A stretch of 43,672 nucleotides of DNA from Planctomycetaceae bacterium (GTDB taxonomy: Bacteria; Planctomycetota; Planctomycetia; Pirellulales; PALSA-1355), in NCBI GenBank assembly GCA_003153375.1, contig PLYM01000218.1, positions 1 through 43,672 on the forward strand, read 5' to 3'. The notes beneath the pieces were generated by a model. The model searched no databases, was not told the DNA's origin, and worked only from the letters and a program-made list of their open reading frames with translations. The position numbers were made by a program, and so were the translations under genes. Below, piece after piece: positions 1 through 10,109 of the stretch. Each line of letters starts with the position of its first letter. Within the stretch, counting starts at the first letter, position 1.

Positions 1-309
1 AAGCAATTTCGGTGGTTGGTATAAGAATACCAAGCCAGAATTAGCGGTTCGGCGGCTATTTCACGGGATGGGCTATCGATATCGGCTACATGGCCGATTG
101 CCTGGGCGGCCGGATATGGTCTTTGCGGGGCGGCATAAGGTCATTTTCGTTCACGGCTGCTTTTGGCACCGCCACAAGGGGTGTCCTACTGCCGATTGCC
201 GAAGTCTCGGCTGGGTTTTTGGAAGCCCAAGCTGGAATCGAAGGGCTGGCGACACGACGAACCGAGAAGCGACTGCGGCGGCTTGGCTTCCAAGTCATGG
301 AGGTGAAAC
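1..309 (+). pseudogene. vsr: Broken very-short-patch-repair endonuclease (Vsr), 5' end outside the window
   Basis: Vsr endonucleases nick beside T:G mismatches left by deamination of 5-methylcytosine. Frame 2 from the first base reads KNTKPELAVRRLFHGMGYRY, then RLPGRPDMVF and VIFVHGCFWHRHKGCP. These are the N-terminal and central Vsr motifs, with the FVHGCFWH metal-site core. Near base 195 the homology moves to frame 1 (LPKSRLGFWKPKLE). Near base 245 it moves again to frame 0 (TRRTEKRLRRLGFQVMEV), the usual C-terminal strand. At least two frameshifts therefore separate the three parts and no single frame gives a complete protein. The usual final tryptophan-rich WECE motif is not seen; the frame runs into the next gene instead. 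A dcm-type cytosine methyltransferase normally sits beside vsr and would lie upstream of the window. The family call is solid; decay rather than sequencing error is inferred from the similar damage in the neighbouring endonuclease gene. Confidence 0.8.
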
Positions 310-495
310 ATGGTGGAGTTCACGGTTGTTGGCTTTTACCCAGATACGCTACAACGTTTTGCAACTTCCCTTGAAGCCAAGGGGCCAGACGAGGCCGAAA
401 ATTTATGCACTCAGCGCTATCCTGGAGTCGTCGTTTGTGGTGTCTTTGTTGGGTGCCATCAGGCCGTTGACACAGCGGAATTCATCGAAGACTAG
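310..495 (+). CDS. Small protein of unknown function (61 aa) between two broken defence genes
   Basis: I do not recognise a named family. The start ATG at 310 follows a perfect Shine-Dalgarno, GGAGGTGA at 299-306, which makes this a well supported gene despite its size. The product is 61 residues, mildly acidic, with a regular alternation that suggests strands and one helix: EFTVVGFYPDT, then RFATSLEAKGPDEAENLC, then GVVVCGVFVGCHQ. Three cysteines (C37, C47, C53 approximately) and one histidine next to the last cysteine are present. There is no signal peptide or membrane segment. The gene overlaps or abuts the end of the broken vsr reading frame and ends 30 bases before the SRA-Mrr pseudogene, so the three were probably one transcription unit. 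Unlike both neighbours it has no frameshift. The sequence looks like a soluble alpha/beta domain under selection; no function can be given. Confidence 0.65.
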   Translation: MVEFTVVGFYPDTLQRFATSLEAKGPDEAENLCTQRYPGVVVCGVFVGCHQAVDTAEFIED

Positions 496-525
496 CCGGA
501 GTGATCGCAACCAGAGTTTCCTCGC

Positions 526-1531
526 ATGAACGAGGTCCAAAGCTCCTTCCAGGTATCCAGACTCTATTCCAACGAGGAAATCTACAGATCGTTGTCCATT
601 GGAAATGCGGGCGGCGTTCGCGTTAAAACGAGTGCCTCGGGTGCAGTGGAGCGTGTGGTGATCTTCACGTCATTGCCCACCGCACGACAACTTGCCGAGA
701 ACCCCTATCACGACCGCATGGAAGGGGACGTGTTGATCTACACTGGTGCGGGGCTAGAGGGTGACCAGTCTGTCACCGGAGTAAATGCGAGGATTGTGCA
801 ACAGCAGGATACTCCATTTCCAATTTACGGCTTTTTGCAAATTGGGAGTCGTCGCGATCCATCGATTGGTAACAAAGATGGGCATTTCTCGGTTTGCTTG
901 AGTATCTGCGCGGGTATCGTGAACGACAAGTGGATTCCCAGGGTGCGTTACGAAACGCCTGGGTATTTGAATTGAGGGTGCATTCCACCCCATCGTCGAT
1001 CGACAAAGCATTCGACTGGCGCATCATGAGCGACATTCTTGCGAATCGCCCGAAGGACATGATCCTCGACGACCGTGAAGTAGTGACCCCAGAAGCAACG
1101 GCGGATACACCGCTGGACATTGCGCAACTCGAACCGATTCGGCGGCAGTTGCTTGCATTCGAGCCGCAACAATTCGAGCACGTAATCCATGACTTGCTTG
1201 AGCAATCTGGATTCGAGCAAGTCGAAGTAACAAATACAGTCAAGACGGGGGTATTGACGTCAATGCGCGACCTGGAAAGCGGTCGTGGCCACTACGTCAT
1301 CTCTTGATCCAACTCCAGGCCAAGCGATGGTTGCACACCGTCGGCTGAAAGGAAGTCGCGGAACTGAGGGGAAGTCTTCAGCCACACGCGGCGGGTTGTA
1401 TTGTTACAACAAGTCACTTTTCCCGTGCTGCGATCAGCGAGTCGACCGCTCCCGGAAAGGTTCCAATATCGGTAATTGACGGCTATGAACTTGCCAGTGT
1501 TGTGACAACGCTCAATTTGCGACTGAAATGA
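526..1531 (+). pseudogene. Broken SRA-Mrr type modification-dependent restriction endonuclease
   Basis: The N-terminal part (526 to about 874, frame 1) looks like an SRA/YDG-type modified-base reader as found in McrA-like enzymes: SIGNAGGVRV, then GDVLIYTGAGLEGDQS. Near 870-876 (aacaaagatgg) the reading shifts to frame 0, where RWAFLGLLEYLRGYRERQVD and RNAWVFELRVH complete that domain. After a linker, FEHVIHDLLEQSGFEQVEV opens an Mrr-type nuclease domain. A second shift near 1248 leads to frame 2: GIDVNARPGK, then LLIQLQAKRW, the D...QxK catalytic core. A TGA at 1346-1348 interrupts the QAKRWLHTVG-KEVAELRG stretch, and the frame then continues cleanly through GCIVTTSHFSRAA and PISVIDGYELA to TGA at 1529-1531. 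Two frameshifts and one nonsense codon show a dead gene. Such enzymes cut DNA carrying modified cytosine. That pairs logically with a Vsr that repairs deaminated 5-methylcytosine. The exact SRA subfamily is uncertain. Confidence 0.8.
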
Positions 1532-2225
1532 CTCGTTGCTCCTCGAATCACAGAGCAGAATAGGGAAAATAAATCCGCTGGGCATTTTGCGTTCGCAACG
1601 CCCCCCTAAACGTAGTGCGGTGGAAATCCCACTTTTGGCGCTGCCATAGGCCTCAGATTCGCTCGGGGCCATGGTGGCGAGTCGCCCGAACCTTTGTCCC
1701 TCTCGGTTCGTCCGCCGGGCGGCCTGCTCGCCTAGCAAATCGTGTTGCTGGCGACGGCTCACACTTTGCAAGTGTCGGGCAACCCGCGCGGTGAAATCGT
1801 GATCGCACACGTGGGCGGAAATTGCTCGTCGCTGCGCGCTGTTTGCAAGAGTCGCGCGAAGCGCGCTGGCATCTCGTGCCGCAGCGGACTCCGTGCTGGG
1901 CGTAGAATGGCGAGACATGGACCTGCGGATACTCGTTGCAACGACTGACGTGTCGAATGGCGCTGCGGAGCAATGGAGAAGTCATCCTGGTCGTCAAACG
2001 ACCGGTGGCAGCGCCGGTCGCGCACTACTCGGGTACGCAACACCCAAATCCCTGCGGCGACTTGAATCGGTTTCTTTAACTTTTTTGGCCCGTAATTTGC
2101 AATCCTCCCAGATTGCCGTTGGGCACGACGGGAACAGCGTTTGAACCTGACTTGGGGCGTGTGACGGCTGAGGGCCGTGTGACGACGCGCGGGGTCGCAA
2201 AGTTTTCCTCACGTGCATTCTCGGA
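1532..2225. other. Gene-free stretch after the defence remnant
   Basis: About 700 bases between the end of the restriction pseudogene and the candidate promoter of the DUF1573 gene. Open frames exist on both strands (for example 1742-1948 plus and 1653-1997 minus), but their translations are rich in Arg, Ser and Cys, show no domain, and lack convincing ribosome sites. Base composition is mixed. I see no tRNA cloverleaf, no insertion-sequence ends and no CRISPR spacing. It may be further decayed sequence of the island or a long intergenic region. Confidence 0.5.
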
Positions 2226-2229
2226 ATGT

Positions 2230-2257
2230 TTGACTTTCTTTCGTTGACAGGTAAACT
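2230..2257 (+). promoter_or_regulatory. Candidate sigma-70-like promoter upstream of the DUF1573 gene
   Basis: TTGACT at 2230-2235 and TAAACT at 2252-2257 are separated by 16 bases. This resembles a vegetative promoter, pointing at the gene that starts at 2413 and leaving a 5' leader of roughly 150 bases. Planctomycete promoters are poorly defined, so this is a pattern match only. Confidence 0.35.
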
Positions 2258-2302
2258 CGATCATGTTCACGACGATTCACAAAAGTTGTCGCTTCTTGCA
2301 GG

Positions 2303-3569: not shown

Positions 3570-3613
3570 AAACGTCAGACGTTTCATGCCAGGTGCGTAA
3601 ACGTCCGAAGTTT
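3570..3613. promoter_or_regulatory. Two copies of a 15-bp palindrome: candidate operator or centromere-like site
   Basis: AAACGTCAGACGTTT at 3570-3584 is a perfect inverted repeat (7-1-7). AAACGTCCGAAGTTT at 3599-3613 is the same sequence with two changes. The repeats are 29 bases apart start to start and lie about 105 bases upstream of a gene for a ribbon-helix-helix DNA-binding protein. RHH proteins bind such repeated short sites and often control their own operon. The sites are seen directly; binding by the adjacent protein is inference. Confidence 0.5.
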
Positions 3614-3716
3614 GCTGATGAAGGCGCCAACCCCGGCGCCGCGCTGGTGGTGGCCCAAGATCGCACCGCCCCAGCCCAGTCGCGGCAGAGAAATTGAACC
3701 CTCAGGAACGAAAACC

Positions 3717-3965
3717 ATGCGGCCTCGACGCGCGAGCGAACCGCCGAAGGTCCGAGCCACGCTCTACCTGTCCGCCGAAGTGCTCAACGAAGCCCGCAAC
3801 GCGGCCGTCCACCTGGCCGGCTACCCGGCTCGCATGACGCTGACGAAGTTGGCCGAAGAGGCCCTGCGGCGTGAGCTGGAGCGACTGCAAGAGCGCTACA
3901 ACGGGGGCCAGCCTTTTCCGGACCGTGGCGAGGACTTGCGGGGCGGCCGGCCCATTGCTGCTTGA
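3717..3965 (+). CDS. Ribbon-helix-helix DNA-binding protein, similar to plasmid centromere-binding ParB C-terminal domain
   Basis: 82-residue protein, starting at the ATG at 3717 (AGGA at about 3704); the open frame continues upstream without a better start. After a short basic tail (MRPRRASEPP) the pattern RATLYLSAEVLNEARNAAVHL fits an RHH beta strand followed by helix 1. MTLTKLAEEALRRELERLQE fits helix 2. The ending, NGGQPFPDR...LRGGRP, is one I associate with the RHH centromere-binding proteins of some actinobacterial plasmid partition systems. No ParA ATPase gene is adjacent, so a classical partition cassette is not present here. The gene is followed 12 bases later by a 42-aa gene and then a protease gene, with tight coupling, indicating an operon. 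It probably represses its own operon through the palindromes at 3570-3613 (inference). Fold call fairly sure, role unsure. Confidence 0.75.
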   Translation: MRPRRASEPPKVRATLYLSAEVLNEARNAAVHLAGYPARMTLTKLAEEALRRELERLQERYNGGQPFPDRGEDLRGGRPIAA

Positions 3966-3977
3966 GCGAGGTGAGTT

Positions 3978-4106
3978 ATGGCTCGAAGTGTCACGAATTC
4001 CGCCGGCCCGGCCGTCGACCGCGAACAATTGCGGCAGGAGCTGTTGAAGCTCATCGTCCGCAGCGAGGCCAGCCGTCGCGATCAAACCAAGGCGACCGGT
4101 AAGTGA
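3978..4106 (+). CDS. 42-aa protein of unknown function, coupled to the protease gene
   Basis: Short gene with a near-perfect Shine-Dalgarno, GAGGTGA at 3968-3974, three bases before the ATG at 3978. The product begins MARSVTNSAGPAVD and continues with an amphipathic helix, REQLRQELLKLIVRSEASRR, ending DQTKATGK. It is charged, has no membrane segment and no cysteine. Its stop TGA (4104-4106) overlaps the GTG start (4103-4105) of the protease gene in the arrangement GTGA, so the two are translationally coupled. The position between an RHH regulator and a protease suggests a partner or adaptor of one of them, but no family is recognised. Confidence comes from the ribosome site and the overlaps, not from homology. 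Confidence 0.6.
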   Translation: MARSVTNSAGPAVDREQLRQELLKLIVRSEASRRDQTKATGK

Positions 4107-5200
4107 AGTGTCTGTTGGCAATCGGCGCCTGCCTGCTGGCCGCGCTGCCCGCCGCTGCGCAAAACGCGGGTCGCGGACAGGTGGGCAGTTCGCTGCAATC
4201 ACTGAGTCAATTCGCGCCGACCACGAGTCTTCAACCCCTCGGCAATGTTCACCCGGCCGTGGCCCGCATCGTGGCCCCCGGCAACGGCAGCATCTCCTAT
4301 GGCTCGGGGACGCTGGTCTACACCGACTCCCAATACGGATTGGTGATCACGAACTGGCACGTCATCAACGAGGCCACGGGGCCGATCTCGGTCCATTTTC
4401 CCGACGGTTTCTATTCGCTGGGCGCCGTGCAGCGTGTGGACCGTGACTGGGACCTGGCGGCCATCGCGATTCGCCGGCCCAACGCTTCGCCCGTGCGACT
4501 GGCCACGGTGCCGGCCCGTCCCGGCGAGTTGCTGACGATTGCCGGCTATGGCTCGGGCACCTACCGCGCGGCGAGCGGACCGTGTACGCAGTATGTGGCC
4601 CCCGGTTCGACGTTCCCGTTCGAAATGGTTGAAGTGGCCGTGAAGGCGCGACAGGGTGACTCGGGGGGACCGATCTTCAATGGTCGCGGCGAATTGGCCG
4701 GCGTGTTGTTTGGCGAGGGAGAGGGTCGCACATCGGGCAGCTATTGCGGTCGCGTGCGCTGGTTTCTGGCGAACATCGTGCCCGATCCGACGCTTGGTGC
4801 CGGCATGATCGCGGCCGCCGGCTTGAAACCGATTCCGCCCCGGCCCCCAGCGGTCGAAACGGCGCCAGCAGCGAACGCGACGATCGAGGTCGCGCAGACG
4901 CCGGCGATTCCGATCAGCCGGCCGAGGTCGATCGTCAGCGCCGAGCCGGCCGAGGAGACCTCGACAGCCACGACGATTCCAATCGCCGAAGTGGCGGCCG
5001 GCAACAAGCCGCCGGTGGTGATGGCCAGCACGCAGGCGGGCGAACCCGAAGTGGCCATGGTGCAAACCATTGGTTGGGAGGATTTCGCCGGCCATAGCAC
5101 GGGCGAGCAGGCGAAAACCGTGCTGGCGATTATCGGGGTTTTGGCGATCGTGGTGCATGCCCTGAGTTGGCTGAGCCGCGAGCGTCCGGCGGCCAAATAG
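4103..5200 (+). CDS. Exported trypsin-like serine protease with C-terminal membrane anchor
   Basis: 365 residues starting at GTG 4103, which overlaps the stop of the preceding gene. A signal peptide (residues 1-19, CLLAIGACLLAALPAAA) is followed by a trypsin-like domain (about 45-230). The catalytic triad is intact: H86 in ITNWHVIN, D117 in DWDLAAI and S187 in RQGDSGGPIF. Residues about 245-330 are a proline/alanine-rich low-complexity linker. A single hydrophobic segment near the C-terminus (about 336-355, TVLAIIGVLAIVVHALSWL), followed by basic residues, should anchor the protein in the membrane with the protease domain outside the cytoplasm. There is no PDZ domain, so it is not a standard DegP. 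It is the last gene of the RHH / 42-aa / protease operon. The substrate is unknown. A proteolytic role is well supported by the triad; its link to the RHH protein is inferred only from gene order. Confidence 0.85.
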   Translation: MKCLLAIGACLLAALPAAAQNAGRGQVGSSLQSLSQFAPTTSLQPLGNVHPAVARIVAPGNGSISYGSGTLVYTDSQYGLVITNWHVINEATGPISVHFPDGFYSLGAVQRVDRDWDLAAIAIRRPNASPVRLATVPARPGELLTIAGYGSGTYRAASGPCTQYVAPGSTFPFEMVEVAVKARQGDSGGPIFNGRGELAGVLFGEGEGRTSGSYCGRVRWFLANIVPDPTLGAGMIAAAGLKPIPPRPPAVETAPAANATIEVAQTPAIPISRPRSIVSAEPAEETSTATTIPIAEVAAGNKPPVVMASTQAGEPEVAMVQTIGWEDFAGHSTGEQAKTVLAIIGVLAIVVHALSWLSRERPAAK

Positions 5201-5801: not shown

Positions 5802-7019
5802 ATGGCCGATTTTTCCGACAAGCGCCTGCCGGAAGGCAAACTCATAGCCGCCGTGGCGGTCGTTTCGCTGGCCGCCGTGTTGCTGGTGTGGTTCGCGGCT
5901 CGCGCCCATCGCCCCGTTGAGGAGGCGGAACAGGCCGACAAGGAGACCGCCGCCGAGGCGGAGTCGGCCAGCGTTCAGCTCGACCGGCCCGAGCTGGTCA
6001 AGGCGGCCGGTATTCAAGTCGAACCGGTCGAAACCCGCACGGTCGAAAACATGCTGACCTGCAACGGCAGCGCGGGTTTTAACCAGAACCAATACGTCAA
6101 GGTGCCGCCCAAGGCCGACGGCATTCTGGCCAAGATCAACGTCGACGTCGGGGCGCGCGTTCGCGCGGGCGACGTCCTGGCCACGGTCAACTCGCAGCCT
6201 TTGGGCGACCTGAAGGCCTCGTATATCAAGGCCCTGGTGCACCAGGAGCACTTGCGCTGGCAAATCGAACGCTACCAGGCGGCCGCCGAGGGCGTGGCGG
6301 CCAAGAACCTGATCGAAGCCAGGCATCTGCTGGAAGAGGAGTTGGCCGACACGGCGCGTATCAAGAATCGGCTTGAGAATTTTGGGCTGAGCGGCCAGCA
6401 GATTGACGTGATTCCCAAACAGCGCGACTTGAGCACGCTGTTGCCGGTGCTAGCCCCACGCGACGGCGTGGTCGTGTTGCGGCAAGCCGTCGAAGGAGAG
6501 CCGGTGCAAACCGCGGTGCCGCTATTCGCGATCGCGGATCTGGAAACGATGTGGGTCCATCTGTACGTCTATGAAAGCCAGTTGCGCTCCGTGCGCATCG
6601 GGCAACTCGTAACGTTTTATCCCGATGGACTGGGCGGACAAGGTTTTGACGGCACGATCGATTGGAGCAGCCCCGAGGTCGATGCCGCGACGCGGACGAT
6701 TCAACTGCGGGCCCAGGTCGCGAATCGCGAGGGGGCGCTGCGGGCTAACATGTTCGGCAAGGCCGTGCTGCACGTCGAGAATGCCCAGCCACGACTGGTC
6801 GTGCCCCAGGCAGCGGTGCAGTCGCACCTGGGAAAACACGTGGTGTTCGTGCAGCAGCCGAACAACGCCTTTGAGATGCGGCCGATCTCCCTGGGGATCA
6901 AGGACGGCCCGTTTTGGGAAGTCACGGCCGGGCTCGCGGCCGGTGAAAAGGTGGCCACGATAGGCAGCTTCCTGTTGAAGGCGAATCTGGAAAACCCCGA
7001 TTTCGGCAAAGTCGAGTAA
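5802..7019 (+). CDS. RND efflux periplasmic adaptor subunit (HlyD/CzcB-CusB family)
   Basis: 405-residue membrane-fusion protein. It starts at ATG 5802 with GGGGAG about ten bases upstream. An N-terminal membrane segment (residues about 12-30, AAVAVVSLAAVLLVWFA) anchors it. The barrel-sandwich (lipoyl-like) half motifs are visible as VPPKADGILAKINVDVGARVRAGD and VLAPRDGVVVLRQAVEGEPV, on either side of a helical hairpin (about 130-210). A beta-barrel region follows (ETMWVHLYVYESQLRSVRIGQ), then a membrane-proximal domain. Adaptors of this type connect an inner-membrane RND pump to an outer-membrane channel. The gene ends 12 bases before the pump gene at 7032, so the two form an operon. No histidine- or methionine-rich metal-binding extension is seen at the N-terminus. 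Confidence 0.93.
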   Translation: MADFSDKRLPEGKLIAAVAVVSLAAVLLVWFAARAHRPVEEAEQADKETAAEAESASVQLDRPELVKAAGIQVEPVETRTVENMLTCNGSAGFNQNQYVKVPPKADGILAKINVDVGARVRAGDVLATVNSQPLGDLKASYIKALVHQEHLRWQIERYQAAAEGVAAKNLIEARHLLEEELADTARIKNRLENFGLSGQQIDVIPKQRDLSTLLPVLAPRDGVVVLRQAVEGEPVQTAVPLFAIADLETMWVHLYVYESQLRSVRIGQLVTFYPDGLGGQGFDGTIDWSSPEVDAATRTIQLRAQVANREGALRANMFGKAVLHVENAQPRLVVPQAAVQSHLGKHVVFVQQPNNAFEMRPISLGIKDGPFWEVTAGLAAGEKVATIGSFLLKANLENPDFGKVE

Positions 7020-7031
7020 CGAGACCCGAAC

Positions 7032-10000
7032 ATGCTCAATCAGATCATCAAATTCAGCCTCGAGCAGCGGCTCCTGATGCTGCTGTTGGCCCTGGTGCTG
7101 GTGTTTGGCGGCGTCGCGGCGTTTCGGGCGCTGCCGATCGACGCCTTTCCCGACACCACGCCGGTGATGGTGCAGGTCAACACCATGGCTCCGGCCCTGG
7201 GACCGACGGACATCGAGATGCAAATCACGTATCCGCTGGAGCAGGTGATCGCCGGCCTGCCCGGTTTGCAGGAAGTGCGTTCGATCTCGAAGACGGGCCT
7301 GTCGCAGATCACGACCATCTTTTCTGGCGGCACCGACATTCTGCGGGCCCGGCAGCTCGTCGGCGAGCGCATCGCCAGTGCCGAGTTGCCCGACATCGGC
7401 GGAGTGAACAAGCCCACGTTGGGGCCCATCGCGACCGGCTTGGGCGAGGTGTATCACTATCTGATGACCAGCGACCGTCACGACCTGACCGAGCTGCGCA
7501 CGCTGCACCATTGGATGGTCAAGTCGCAATTGCGCACCGTGCCGGGCGTGGCCGAGGTGAATACCTGGGGCGGCTACGAAAAGCAGTTTCACGTCCTGTT
7601 CGATCCGGCACGGCTGCTCAAGTATGACCTGACCCTGACCGACGTCGTCGAGGCGCTCAAGACCAACAACGCCAACGTCGGGGGCGGCGGCATCTCACGC
7701 AGCGGCGAGTTGCAACTGATTCAGGGCGTCGGCCGCTTGACCAGCCTCAGCGACATCTCGAGCGTCGTGCTCAAACAGCACGACGGCCAGAGCGTGCGCA
7801 TCCACGACGTGGCCGACGTCGAAATCGATCACGAAATTCCCACCGGCGCCGTGACCGCCGAGGGCCGCGGCGAAGTGATCCTGGGCATGGGCTTCATGCT
7901 GATGGGAGAGAATAGCCGCGAAGTCACCGAACGGCTGCGGGCCAAAATGGCCGAGATCGAACCCACGCTGCCCGCCGGCGTCCACATCCAAGAAGTGCTG
8001 GCCCGCACGGACCTGGTCGACGAAGTGCTGGCCACGGCCAAACACAACCTGCTGTTCGGAGCGATTCTGGTCGTCGCGGCCTTGTTTGCCTTGGGTGGCG
8101 GGCTGCGGGCCGGTCTGATCGTGGCCATGGCGATCCCCCTGTCGTTCATGGCGGCCGGCAGCCTGATGCTGCAAGCGGGCATCGCCGGCAGCCTGATGAG
8201 CCTGGGCGCGATCGACTTTGGCATCGTCGTCGACAGCTCGGTGATCATGATCGAAAACTCGGTGCGACACCTGTCCGAGAATCGCACCGGGCGGCCCACG
8301 GCCGACGTGGTGCGCGATGCGTGCTTGGAGGTGCGCAAGCCGACGATGTTCGGCGAGTTGATCATCATGATTGTCTACCTGCCGATCCTGACACTGGAAG
8401 GCATCGAGGGTAAATTATTCCGGCCGATGGCGCTGACGGTGCTGTTTGCCCTGGCCGGCTCGCTGATCCTGTCGCTGACGCTGATGCCGGCGCTGGCGGC
8501 CACGGTGCTGCCGAATCGGATGTCGGAGAAGGAGCCGCTGCTGGTGCGCTGGGCCCATTGGCTCTATCGGCCCGTGCTCAACCGAGTGCTCCGGCATCGG
8601 CTGCCCGTGCTCGTGATGGCCCTGGCGGTCATGGTCAGCGCCGCGATCCTGGGCCTGGAATTGGGCACGGAGTTTATCCCACGGCTGAGCGAAGGCTCGG
8701 TGGTGATCGCCACGCAGCGGCTGGCTAGCGTCTCGCTCGAGGAGTCGGTCCGCTATGGCACGCAACTCGAGAAGCTGTTGCTGGAGAAATTTCCCGACGA
8801 GATCAACCACATCTGGAGCCGCACGGGCACGGCCGAGGTGGCCACCGATCCGATGGGCCTGGACCAAACCGACGTCTTTATCACGTTACGGCCCCGCGAG
8901 GAGTGGAAACGTGGTGGCACCCAAGATGAGTTGGTGACACAGATGAAAGAGGTCGTCAACGGCCTGCCGGGCATGTCGATGCTCTTCACGCAACCCATCG
9001 AACAGCGCATCAATGAAATGATCGCCGGCATCCGCGGCGACCTGGGCATCAAGGTCGTGGGCGAGGATTACAATAAGCTGATCGAGTATGCCGAACAAAT
9101 CGCGCACACCGTGAAGGCCATCCCCGGCGCCAAGGACGTCGTGCCCGACCAGTTGACGATGACCTCGGTGGTGCGGATCACGGTCGACGAAGAGGCCCTG
9201 TCGCGCTATGGCATCCCTCGCCGCGACGTGTTGGCGATCGTGCAGGCGGTGGGCACGCCGCGCGTGGGCGAGGTTTATGAAGGCCAGCGCCGTTTTCCGC
9301 TGGTGGTGCGGCTGGCCAAACGCTATCGCGAAGATCCCGAAGCGATCGGCCAGATCCTGGTGGCGGCCCCCAACGGCATGCGTCTGCCGCTGTCGCGTTT
9401 GACGACGATCGAGCAGGTCCAAACGCCGACGGTCATCTCGCGCGAATGGGCCAAACGCCGCATGCTCGTGCAGTGCAACATCCGCGGTCGCGACACCGGC
9501 TCGTTCGTCGAAGAGGCCAAACGACGGGTGGCAGCGTTGACCAAGACCTGGACGCCCGGCTATCACGTCGTCTGGGGTGGCCAATTCGACCACATGCAGC
9601 GGGCCTATCAGCGGCTGCTCATCGTGGTGCCTCTGGCGGCCGTGCTGATCTTCATCTTGCTCTATGCCACGTTCAACAATGTTCGCGATGCCTTGTTGAT
9701 CTTCAGCGGCGTGCCATTCGCCGTGGTCGGAGGCGTGATCTCGTTGTATGTCGCCGGGCTGCCTTTCTCCATCTCGGCGGCCGTGGGGTTCGTGGCCGTG
9801 TTCGGCATTGCCGTGCTCAATGGACTGGTGCTGGTTTCCTATATCCACAAGCTGCGCGACGCGGGGCACTCGCTGGATCAGGCCGTGTTCGATGCGGGCA
9901 TGCTGCGGCTGCGGCCGGTGCTGATGACGTCGGCCACGGCCGCTTTGGGGTTCGTGCCGATGATGCTGGCCACGGCGGTCGGGGCCGAAGTGCAGCGTCC

Positions 10001-10109
10001 GCTGGCCACGGTTGTCGTGGGCGGCATCATCAGTTCGCTGCTGCTGACCCTGCTGGTGCTGCCGGTGCTCTATTCGTTGTTTGGTCCGCCGGCCAGCCAG
10101 TCGGCCTGA
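7032..10109 (+). CDS. Heavy-metal efflux RND pump, CzcA-like
   Basis: 1025-residue inner-membrane proton-driven pump with the usual RND plan: TM1 at about 10-30, a large periplasmic loop, TM2-6 (about 335-500), a second loop, and TM7-12 (about 855-1015). In TM4 the motif DFGIVVDSSVIMIEN carries D395, D401 and E408. The spacing and sequence match the DFG...D...E proton-relay motif of CzcA-type divalent-cation pumps, while CusA-type copper pumps have different residues there. The loop motif FPDTTPVMVQVNT and the EFIPRLSEGS region also fit heavy-metal RND pumps. Length is normal for the family. It follows its adaptor by 12 bases. No outer-membrane factor gene is found downstream; the partner must be encoded elsewhere. 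Substrate is probably Co/Zn/Cd or Ni; this is inference from the motif. Confidence 0.93.
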   Translation: MLNQIIKFSLEQRLLMLLLALVLVFGGVAAFRALPIDAFPDTTPVMVQVNTMAPALGPTDIEMQITYPLEQVIAGLPGLQEVRSISKTGLSQITTIFSGGTDILRARQLVGERIASAELPDIGGVNKPTLGPIATGLGEVYHYLMTSDRHDLTELRTLHHWMVKSQLRTVPGVAEVNTWGGYEKQFHVLFDPARLLKYDLTLTDVVEALKTNNANVGGGGISRSGELQLIQGVGRLTSLSDISSVVLKQHDGQSVRIHDVADVEIDHEIPTGAVTAEGRGEVILGMGFMLMGENSREVTERLRAKMAEIEPTLPAGVHIQEVLARTDLVDEVLATAKHNLLFGAILVVAALFALGGGLRAGLIVAMAIPLSFMAAGSLMLQAGIAGSLMSLGAIDFGIVVDSSVIMIENSVRHLSENRTGRPTADVVRDACLEVRKPTMFGELIIMIVYLPILTLEGIEGKLFRPMALTVLFALAGSLILSLTLMPALAATVLPNRMSEKEPLLVRWAHWLYRPVLNRVLRHRLPVLVMALAVMVSAAILGLELGTEFIPRLSEGSVVIATQRLASVSLEESVRYGTQLEKLLLEKFPDEINHIWSRTGTAEVATDPMGLDQTDVFITLRPREEWKRGGTQDELVTQMKEVVNGLPGMSMLFTQPIEQRINEMIAGIRGDLGIKVVGEDYNKLIEYAEQIAHTVKAIPGAKDVVPDQLTMTSVVRITVDEEALSRYGIPRRDVLAIVQAVGTPRVGEVYEGQRRFPLVVRLAKRYREDPEAIGQILVAAPNGMRLPLSRLTTIEQVQTPTVISREWAKRRMLVQCNIRGRDTGSFVEEAKRRVAALTKTWTPGYHVVWGGQFDHMQRAYQRLLIVVPLAAVLIFILLYATFNNVRDALLIFSGVPFAVVGGVISLYVAGLPFSISAAVGFVAVFGIAVLNGLVLVSYIHKLRDAGHSLDQAVFDAGMLRLRPVLMTSATAALGFVPMMLATAVGAEVQRPLATVVVGGIISSLLLTLLVLPVLYSLFGPPASQSA

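Follow-up and report, generated by a model that had tools for sequence, protein, structure and literature searches.

Type Ib centromere-binding proteins recognize repeats that lie ahead of the par operon and also act as repressors, and in this type of partition the N-terminal tail of the centromere-binding protein drives ParA (PMC5016525). In this study, we analyzed a 43,672-nucleotide stretch of DNA (contig PLYM01000218.1, hereafter the window) from a 6.7-Mb planctomycete genome, whose relatives in the databases are labelled Pirellulales, and focused on a gene cluster in which a protein of this ancestry is encoded ahead of a small protein and a putative exported protease. To our knowledge, hardly anything is known of how envelope proteolysis is regulated in Planctomycetes.

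Organization of the Operon

The cluster consists of three plus-strand genes in tandem. The first encodes an 82-amino acid ribbon-helix-helix (RHH) protein related to the centromere-binding ParB of type Ib plasmid partition (positions 3717..3965; ATG at 3717 and stop at 3963–3965), the second a charged, helical 42-amino acid protein with the motif LRxxLLxxI (3978..4106; ATG at 3978), and the third a 365-amino acid trypsin-like (S1) protease, predicted to be exported, with an HtrA/MarP-type catalytic domain, a proline-rich linker, and a candidate C-terminal membrane anchor (4103..5200). Exactly 12 bases separate the RHH stop codon from the next ATG, which is preceded by GAGGTGA at 3968–3974, and the TGA stop of the 42-amino acid gene falls within a GTGA (4103–4106) that also contains the GTG start of the protease gene. 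A preliminary description of this DNA had reported the same gene coordinates and coupling (12 bases, then a GTGA overlap), which were confirmed when the window was read again. A longer RHH frame reaching back to GTG 3534 was rejected as the gene because relatives begin at the position equivalent to ATG 3717. Comparison with the nearest relatives suggested purifying selection on all three genes (dN/dS about 0.1–0.4 where dS could be estimated). An Rfam scan of the window gave zero matches, that is, no known riboswitch or leader.

Partition Ancestry of the RHH Protein

The only convincing relatives of the RHH protein are type Ib plasmid partition proteins. When its profile was compared with solved structures, one credible relative was found, the ParB of pCXC100 (3no7, E-value 1.2e-4), and the match covers positions 12–81, including the C-terminal tail. 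The same structure was the sole confident Foldseek match of the predicted fold (probability 1.00, TM 0.75 on the target, E-value 0.023) and was also ranked first by VIA-align (Z 6.1, 60 residues, rmsd 2.8 Å). The beta strand is unformed in the model, as a monomer was modelled and the ribbon of the RHH fold is made between two chains. The corresponding Pfam family (CB_ParB_C, PF18064) scored 14.5 bits against the window protein, under the gathering cut-off of 27, and weakly matched 9 of 23 RHH members (best E-value 0.0046). Thus, the ParB-like assignment that had been made from the single sequence, itself below the Pfam cut-off, is made firm by profile and fold.

More distant RHH relatives (E-value about 1e-7) were detected in other orders of the class, several of them directly downstream of a ParA gene, and one of these ParA-linked loci of other planctomycetes also contains a TrwC relaxase. 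The ParA-linked homologs have roughly 45–115 residues ahead of the RHH domain and end in GGRPIK or GGRPIR, whereas most members of the operon family have about 10 residues there, which are unconserved except for Met1. ParA was not seen among the genes neighboring RHH, either in the window or in its relatives. By sequence comparison, the operon RHH is a partition protein cut down to its regulatory half, in which the RHH domain and the tail are kept and both ParA and the N-terminal region are gone. No RHH relatives were found among PLSDB plasmids, INPHARED phages, or IMG/VR, so that the gene as such is not cargo of a phage or plasmid.

Several other RHH genes were observed during these searches. 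One genus has a second, shorter RHH paralog (L068, G011:C142; L069, G028:C692) which lacks the GGRPIAA tail and after which neither the small gene nor the protease was detected. Two plasmid-like stretches from other planctomycete orders encode a ParB-like RHH protein, one together with ParA, the TrwC relaxase and an uncharacterized protein of ~420 amino acids (L105, G267) and the other with an ArdC-like protein (L100, G242); only two plasmid matches to this ParB were found, both weak.

A Conserved Palindrome Upstream of the RHH Gene

Two palindrome copies had been described ahead of the operon, and both are present. The first, AAACGTCAGACGTTT (3570..3584, unstranded), is a perfect inverted repeat around its own center and is the proposed RHH operator; the second, AAACGTCCGAAGTTT (3599..3613, unstranded), lies 29 bp from it and is imperfect, with one mismatch. 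When the window was shuffled 100 times with dinucleotides preserved, the observed number of palindrome matches was never reached.

Examination of related genomes, which had been suggested as a check, revealed that the palindromes are kept. In 57 of 58 RHH loci, a sequence agreeing with AAACGTCnGACGTTT at 12 or more of 14 positions precedes the RHH start, but this holds for only 1 of 39 protease loci that lack RHH (P-value = 1e-24, Fisher's test; owing to the relatedness of the loci, the probability is not a truly independent one). A match of at least 12/14 occurred in 5 of 2000 shuffled sequences (first set of loci). The sole RHH locus with a degraded operator (11/14), in genome G013, is also the RHH locus without the protease. 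A weaker second site is common in relatives, and good second sites are mostly 29–30 or 19–20 bp away, close to three or two whole helical turns, and sometimes 37–39 bp.

In ten whole genomes, eight operator sites with at most one mismatch were found outside the operon, compared with 11 for a reversed-pattern control, so that no additional regulon sites were detected above control. A second 13-base site in the window's own genome (C224) falls within what appears to be coding sequence and was taken as a chance occurrence. No sigma-70-like promoter was found beside the operator. Near the ParA-linked homologs, the best scores of an operator search were at shuffle level; two ParA-linked loci contain, close to parA, palindromes whose half-sites read AAACGC or AACGCC. 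There appears to be one private operator per genome which tracks the RHH gene, and it is very probable that the palindrome AAACGTCnGACGTTT is the RHH protein's own operator. The preliminary description had also raised the idea that a partition regulator was captured and given a new use. This idea is well supported by the ParB-type RHH with the C-terminal tail of that family, and further evidence comes from the absence of an adjacent ParA and of a ParA-type N-terminal tail as well as from the conserved operator.

Distribution and Probable Loss of the RHH Gene

The RHH gene was found in 24 of 57 relatives searched, and a profile search covering 246 genomes of the window's order detected it in 60; in a search of 397 genomes of the class, the close RHH family was limited to this order. 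Among 59 RHH loci, the protease follows wherever the contig permits, with one exception. This is the G013 locus (L059, G013:C157), in which RHH and the small protein are kept and a precorrin-methylase-like gene (identified by eye) takes the place of the protease; it offers a natural test of what RHH and the small gene do alone. All other breaks in the order RHH, small gene, protease among the fetched loci are contig ends. A cultured bacterium, Adhaeretor mobilis HG15A2 (L037), is among those with all three genes. Over the aligned set, identity to the window proteins is 63–83% for RHH and 39–63% for the protease.

Flanking genes differ between families. In the window, the neighbors include a DUF1573 gene and CzcA-like efflux genes, whereas one large family shares genes resembling cobA/hemD and coaD (names by sequence inspection), indicating that the three-gene unit itself is what is conserved.

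The surroundings of the operon in the window were also inspected by eye. CzcB/CzcA-like metal efflux genes follow the operon at 5802–10109; the CzcA-like gene also lies behind the operon in the same-genus relative but not in most other families. The first part of the window (1–2300) appears to hold a fragment of a Vsr-type endonuclease together with reading frames that look broken, and may be the remains of a defence or mobile region.

The preliminary description had treated the three genes as one linked unit, perhaps a module for regulated proteolysis or stress. Their order is indeed conserved, as its proposed examination of related genomes revealed, but an obligatory three-part module is less well supported: the protease family is present in 170 of the 246 genomes of the order (E-value ≤ 1e-30), many more than contain RHH, and many RHH-less loci retain the small protein together with the protease. 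Decayed relics are visible in some of these. Remnants of the RHH tail were detected in two RHH-less loci with small protein and protease (L123, RQDFPQCKEDLKGGRPIAA; L128, FGGTDFPH*QAVPEGGRPIAA), and one such locus (L124) has an operator remnant. The protease tree is unrooted and has weak support; on it, 17 changes of the RHH label are required, at least 4 of which are forced by strongly supported branches; together with the relics, repeated loss of RHH appears to be the simplest reading.

The small protein was detected in 57 of the 59 RHH loci and precedes the protease in 18 of 39 RHH-less loci. About half of the RHH-less protease loci have no recognizable small protein, so that its link to the protease is not absolute. 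Because the two genes persist together where RHH has decayed, they are likely to be the core of the system, and RHH, which is missing or decayed in many genomes that retain the protease (often with the small protein), is likely an accessory and dispensable switch.

This pattern also bears on the question of whether RHH could still be a partition or DNA-anchoring protein that marks a unique chromosomal site, with ParA encoded elsewhere in the genome and the neighbors as passengers. Both its ParB ancestry and the uniqueness of the operator site in the genome would agree with such a role. However, a gene that is absent or decayed in many relatives, and that is strictly linked to the same two downstream genes where it occurs, is hard to reconcile with it, as are the lack of an adjacent ParA, the short N-terminal region, and the single strong palindrome, often with a second but without further genomic sites above control, in place of a repeat array that could serve as a centromere. 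We consider a remaining partition function very improbable and favor a local regulator of the operon.

The C-Terminal End of the RHH Protein

The RHH protein of the window ends in GGRPIAA (3942..3962, plus strand), in which the ancestral GGRPI is followed by a new Ala-Ala end. This end is found in all 59 loci (GGRP[IL]AA), and the invariant Ala-Ala stands where ParA-linked homologs have lysine or arginine. For comparison, 16 of 484 long open reading frames of the fetched loci have an Ala-Ala end. The host genome's own tmRNA tag is AEDSFALAA. It is known that the terminal Ala-Ala is the weightiest element of the ssrA tag for ClpXP and that similar ends make other cellular proteins targets (PMC7652416). 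With its C-terminal Ala-Ala, the RHH regulator can be placed, from sequence alone, among putative ssrA-like substrates, and we infer by analogy that it is degraded by ClpXP, although the Ile-Ala-Ala that follows GGRP may be inaccessible to ClpX. Turnover by ClpXP would be a second possible layer of control, which was absent from the preliminary description.

Alternatively, the tail could be a partner-binding site, which would suit a reading in which RHH does not work as a simple autorepressor under regulated turnover but as an activator, or as a sensor of a ligand or of a partner such as the small protein. The co-occurrence of RHH and operator is independent of the sign of control, and G013 retains RHH and the small protein without the protease. 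On the other hand, type Ib partition proteins have been reported as repressors (PMC5016525), and the small protein persists with the protease after RHH has been lost. An activator or sensor therefore seems rather unlikely to us, and autorepression is preferred.

The Protease and the Small Protein

The protease matches Trypsin_2 of Pfam (E-value 3e-16; 60.8 bits, above the cut-off of 27.6) with an intact catalytic triad spanning 4358..4663 on the plus strand (His86, 4358–4360; Asp117, 4451–4453; Ser187, 4661–4663), and the triad is invariant among aligned relatives. Its N-terminus looks signal-peptide-like by eye. In the predicted structure, a confident protease domain is followed by a proline-rich linker, predicted with low confidence, and near the C-terminus by a hydrophobic helix (residues 333–359; 5099..5179, plus strand) with a short tail behind it, a candidate membrane anchor; a hydrophobic C-terminal segment with a short tail is present in nearly all complete relatives. 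Thus, Trypsin_2 match, triad, and predicted helix agree with the exported, anchored, trypsin-like protease originally proposed. The nearest solved structures are the catalytic domains of HtrA/DegS, DegP, and MarP. The protease scored 46.6 bits in the NCBIfam equivalog test for MarP (cut-off 250) and 34.2 bits in that for the HtrA/DegP/DegS family (cut-off 416), and no PDZ domain was matched after the protease domain.

A conserved cysteine at residue 161 is often without a partner cysteine in the protease of several loci (L058, L063, L039, and others); in other families the partner is present, in SGSYCGRV.

The small protein keeps only the helix motif LRxxLLxxI, of which Arg19, Leu22, and Ile26 do not vary within the aligned set.

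Many toxin–antitoxin operons are led by RHH autoregulators. An addiction unit, in which RHH and/or the small protein would neutralize a harmful protease, might likewise use a short-lived regulator of the kind proposed here and coupled small and protease genes. Nevertheless, the protease is predicted to be exported and is present in many genomes without RHH, often without a recognizable small protein; the flanks are conserved within one large family, phage or plasmid copies were not found, and no toxin family reached a meaningful score in Pfam, NCBIfam, or PADLOC. A toxin–antitoxin role is thus very unlikely. A defence system likewise found no support: PHROGs gave nothing, and PADLOC gave only protease-domain matches (RT-Protease and others), a consequence of the S1 fold.

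A Model of the Operon

The best overall explanation, to which we assign a probability of roughly 0.72, is that a ParB-type RHH protein split from ParA and is now a dedicated local regulator of its operon, most likely an autorepressor, with the proposed turnover. RHH dimers would occupy the palindrome, with cooperative binding to the second site where present, and so keep transcription of all three genes low. The Ala-Ala end would make RHH short-lived via ClpXP, and the operon would be released if turnover rises or synthesis falls. The small, presumably cytoplasmic helix protein, whose translation would be coupled to that of the protease, may be a partner of the latter, perhaps in assembly, insertion, or restraint, and the protease may trim envelope proteins outside the inner membrane.

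A more elaborate version is quite improbable in our opinion: a membrane complex of the small protein with the protease's short inner tail might also hold RHH at its unique site, such that the state of the protease is read onto operon transcription, with the ssrA-like end triggering removal of RHH. If true, this would be a one-operon signal path from envelope to DNA made from a plasmid partition protein.

A literature search for the combination of RHH, small protein, and protease found nothing relevant; the arrangement looks new as a combination, whose parts are of known kinds. Under the autorepressor reading, it would be a clear case in which the chromosome took over a plasmid partition protein as a one-operon regulator, and comparison reveals the family, the type of ancestor, the private operator, the losses, and the relics. 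It also predicts a protein–DNA pair, points to the protease as the likely partner of a conserved small protein, and provides a way into the study of envelope proteolysis in Planctomycetes.

Comparison with Known Systems

By NCBIfam, PDB sequence, and fold, the protease is nearest to MarP (Rv3671c) and HtrA/DegS-type proteases, with which it shares a membrane-anchored S1 catalytic domain outside the membrane (predicted here). It differs from them in having a C-terminal anchor instead of N-terminal membrane helices and no PDZ domain, and it scores far under their family cut-offs.

The ParA–ParB elements of other planctomycete orders (L103–L106) have ParA upstream, the longer region before RHH, and lysine or arginine at the end; they lack the protease, and a matching operator was not found; one of them (L105) has the relaxase. 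Their RHH proteins are homologous to that of the operon: the strand predicted to face the DNA has similar residues (K/R, T, H/Y), and the GGRPI tail is shared.

Unlike type Ib proteins such as pCXC100 ParB, TP228 ParG, and pSM19035 omega, the operon RHH has neither a ParA gene nor the long flexible N-terminal tail whose arginine finger acts on ParA, and it is distinguished by the Ala-Ala end, the linkage to a protease, and a target made up of one or two palindromes rather than an array of repeats. It shares with them the RHH fold and a target upstream of its own operon and, with pCXC100 ParB, the C-terminal tail NxG..F....GRP; the repressor role of the known proteins (PMC5016525) is the one proposed for it here.
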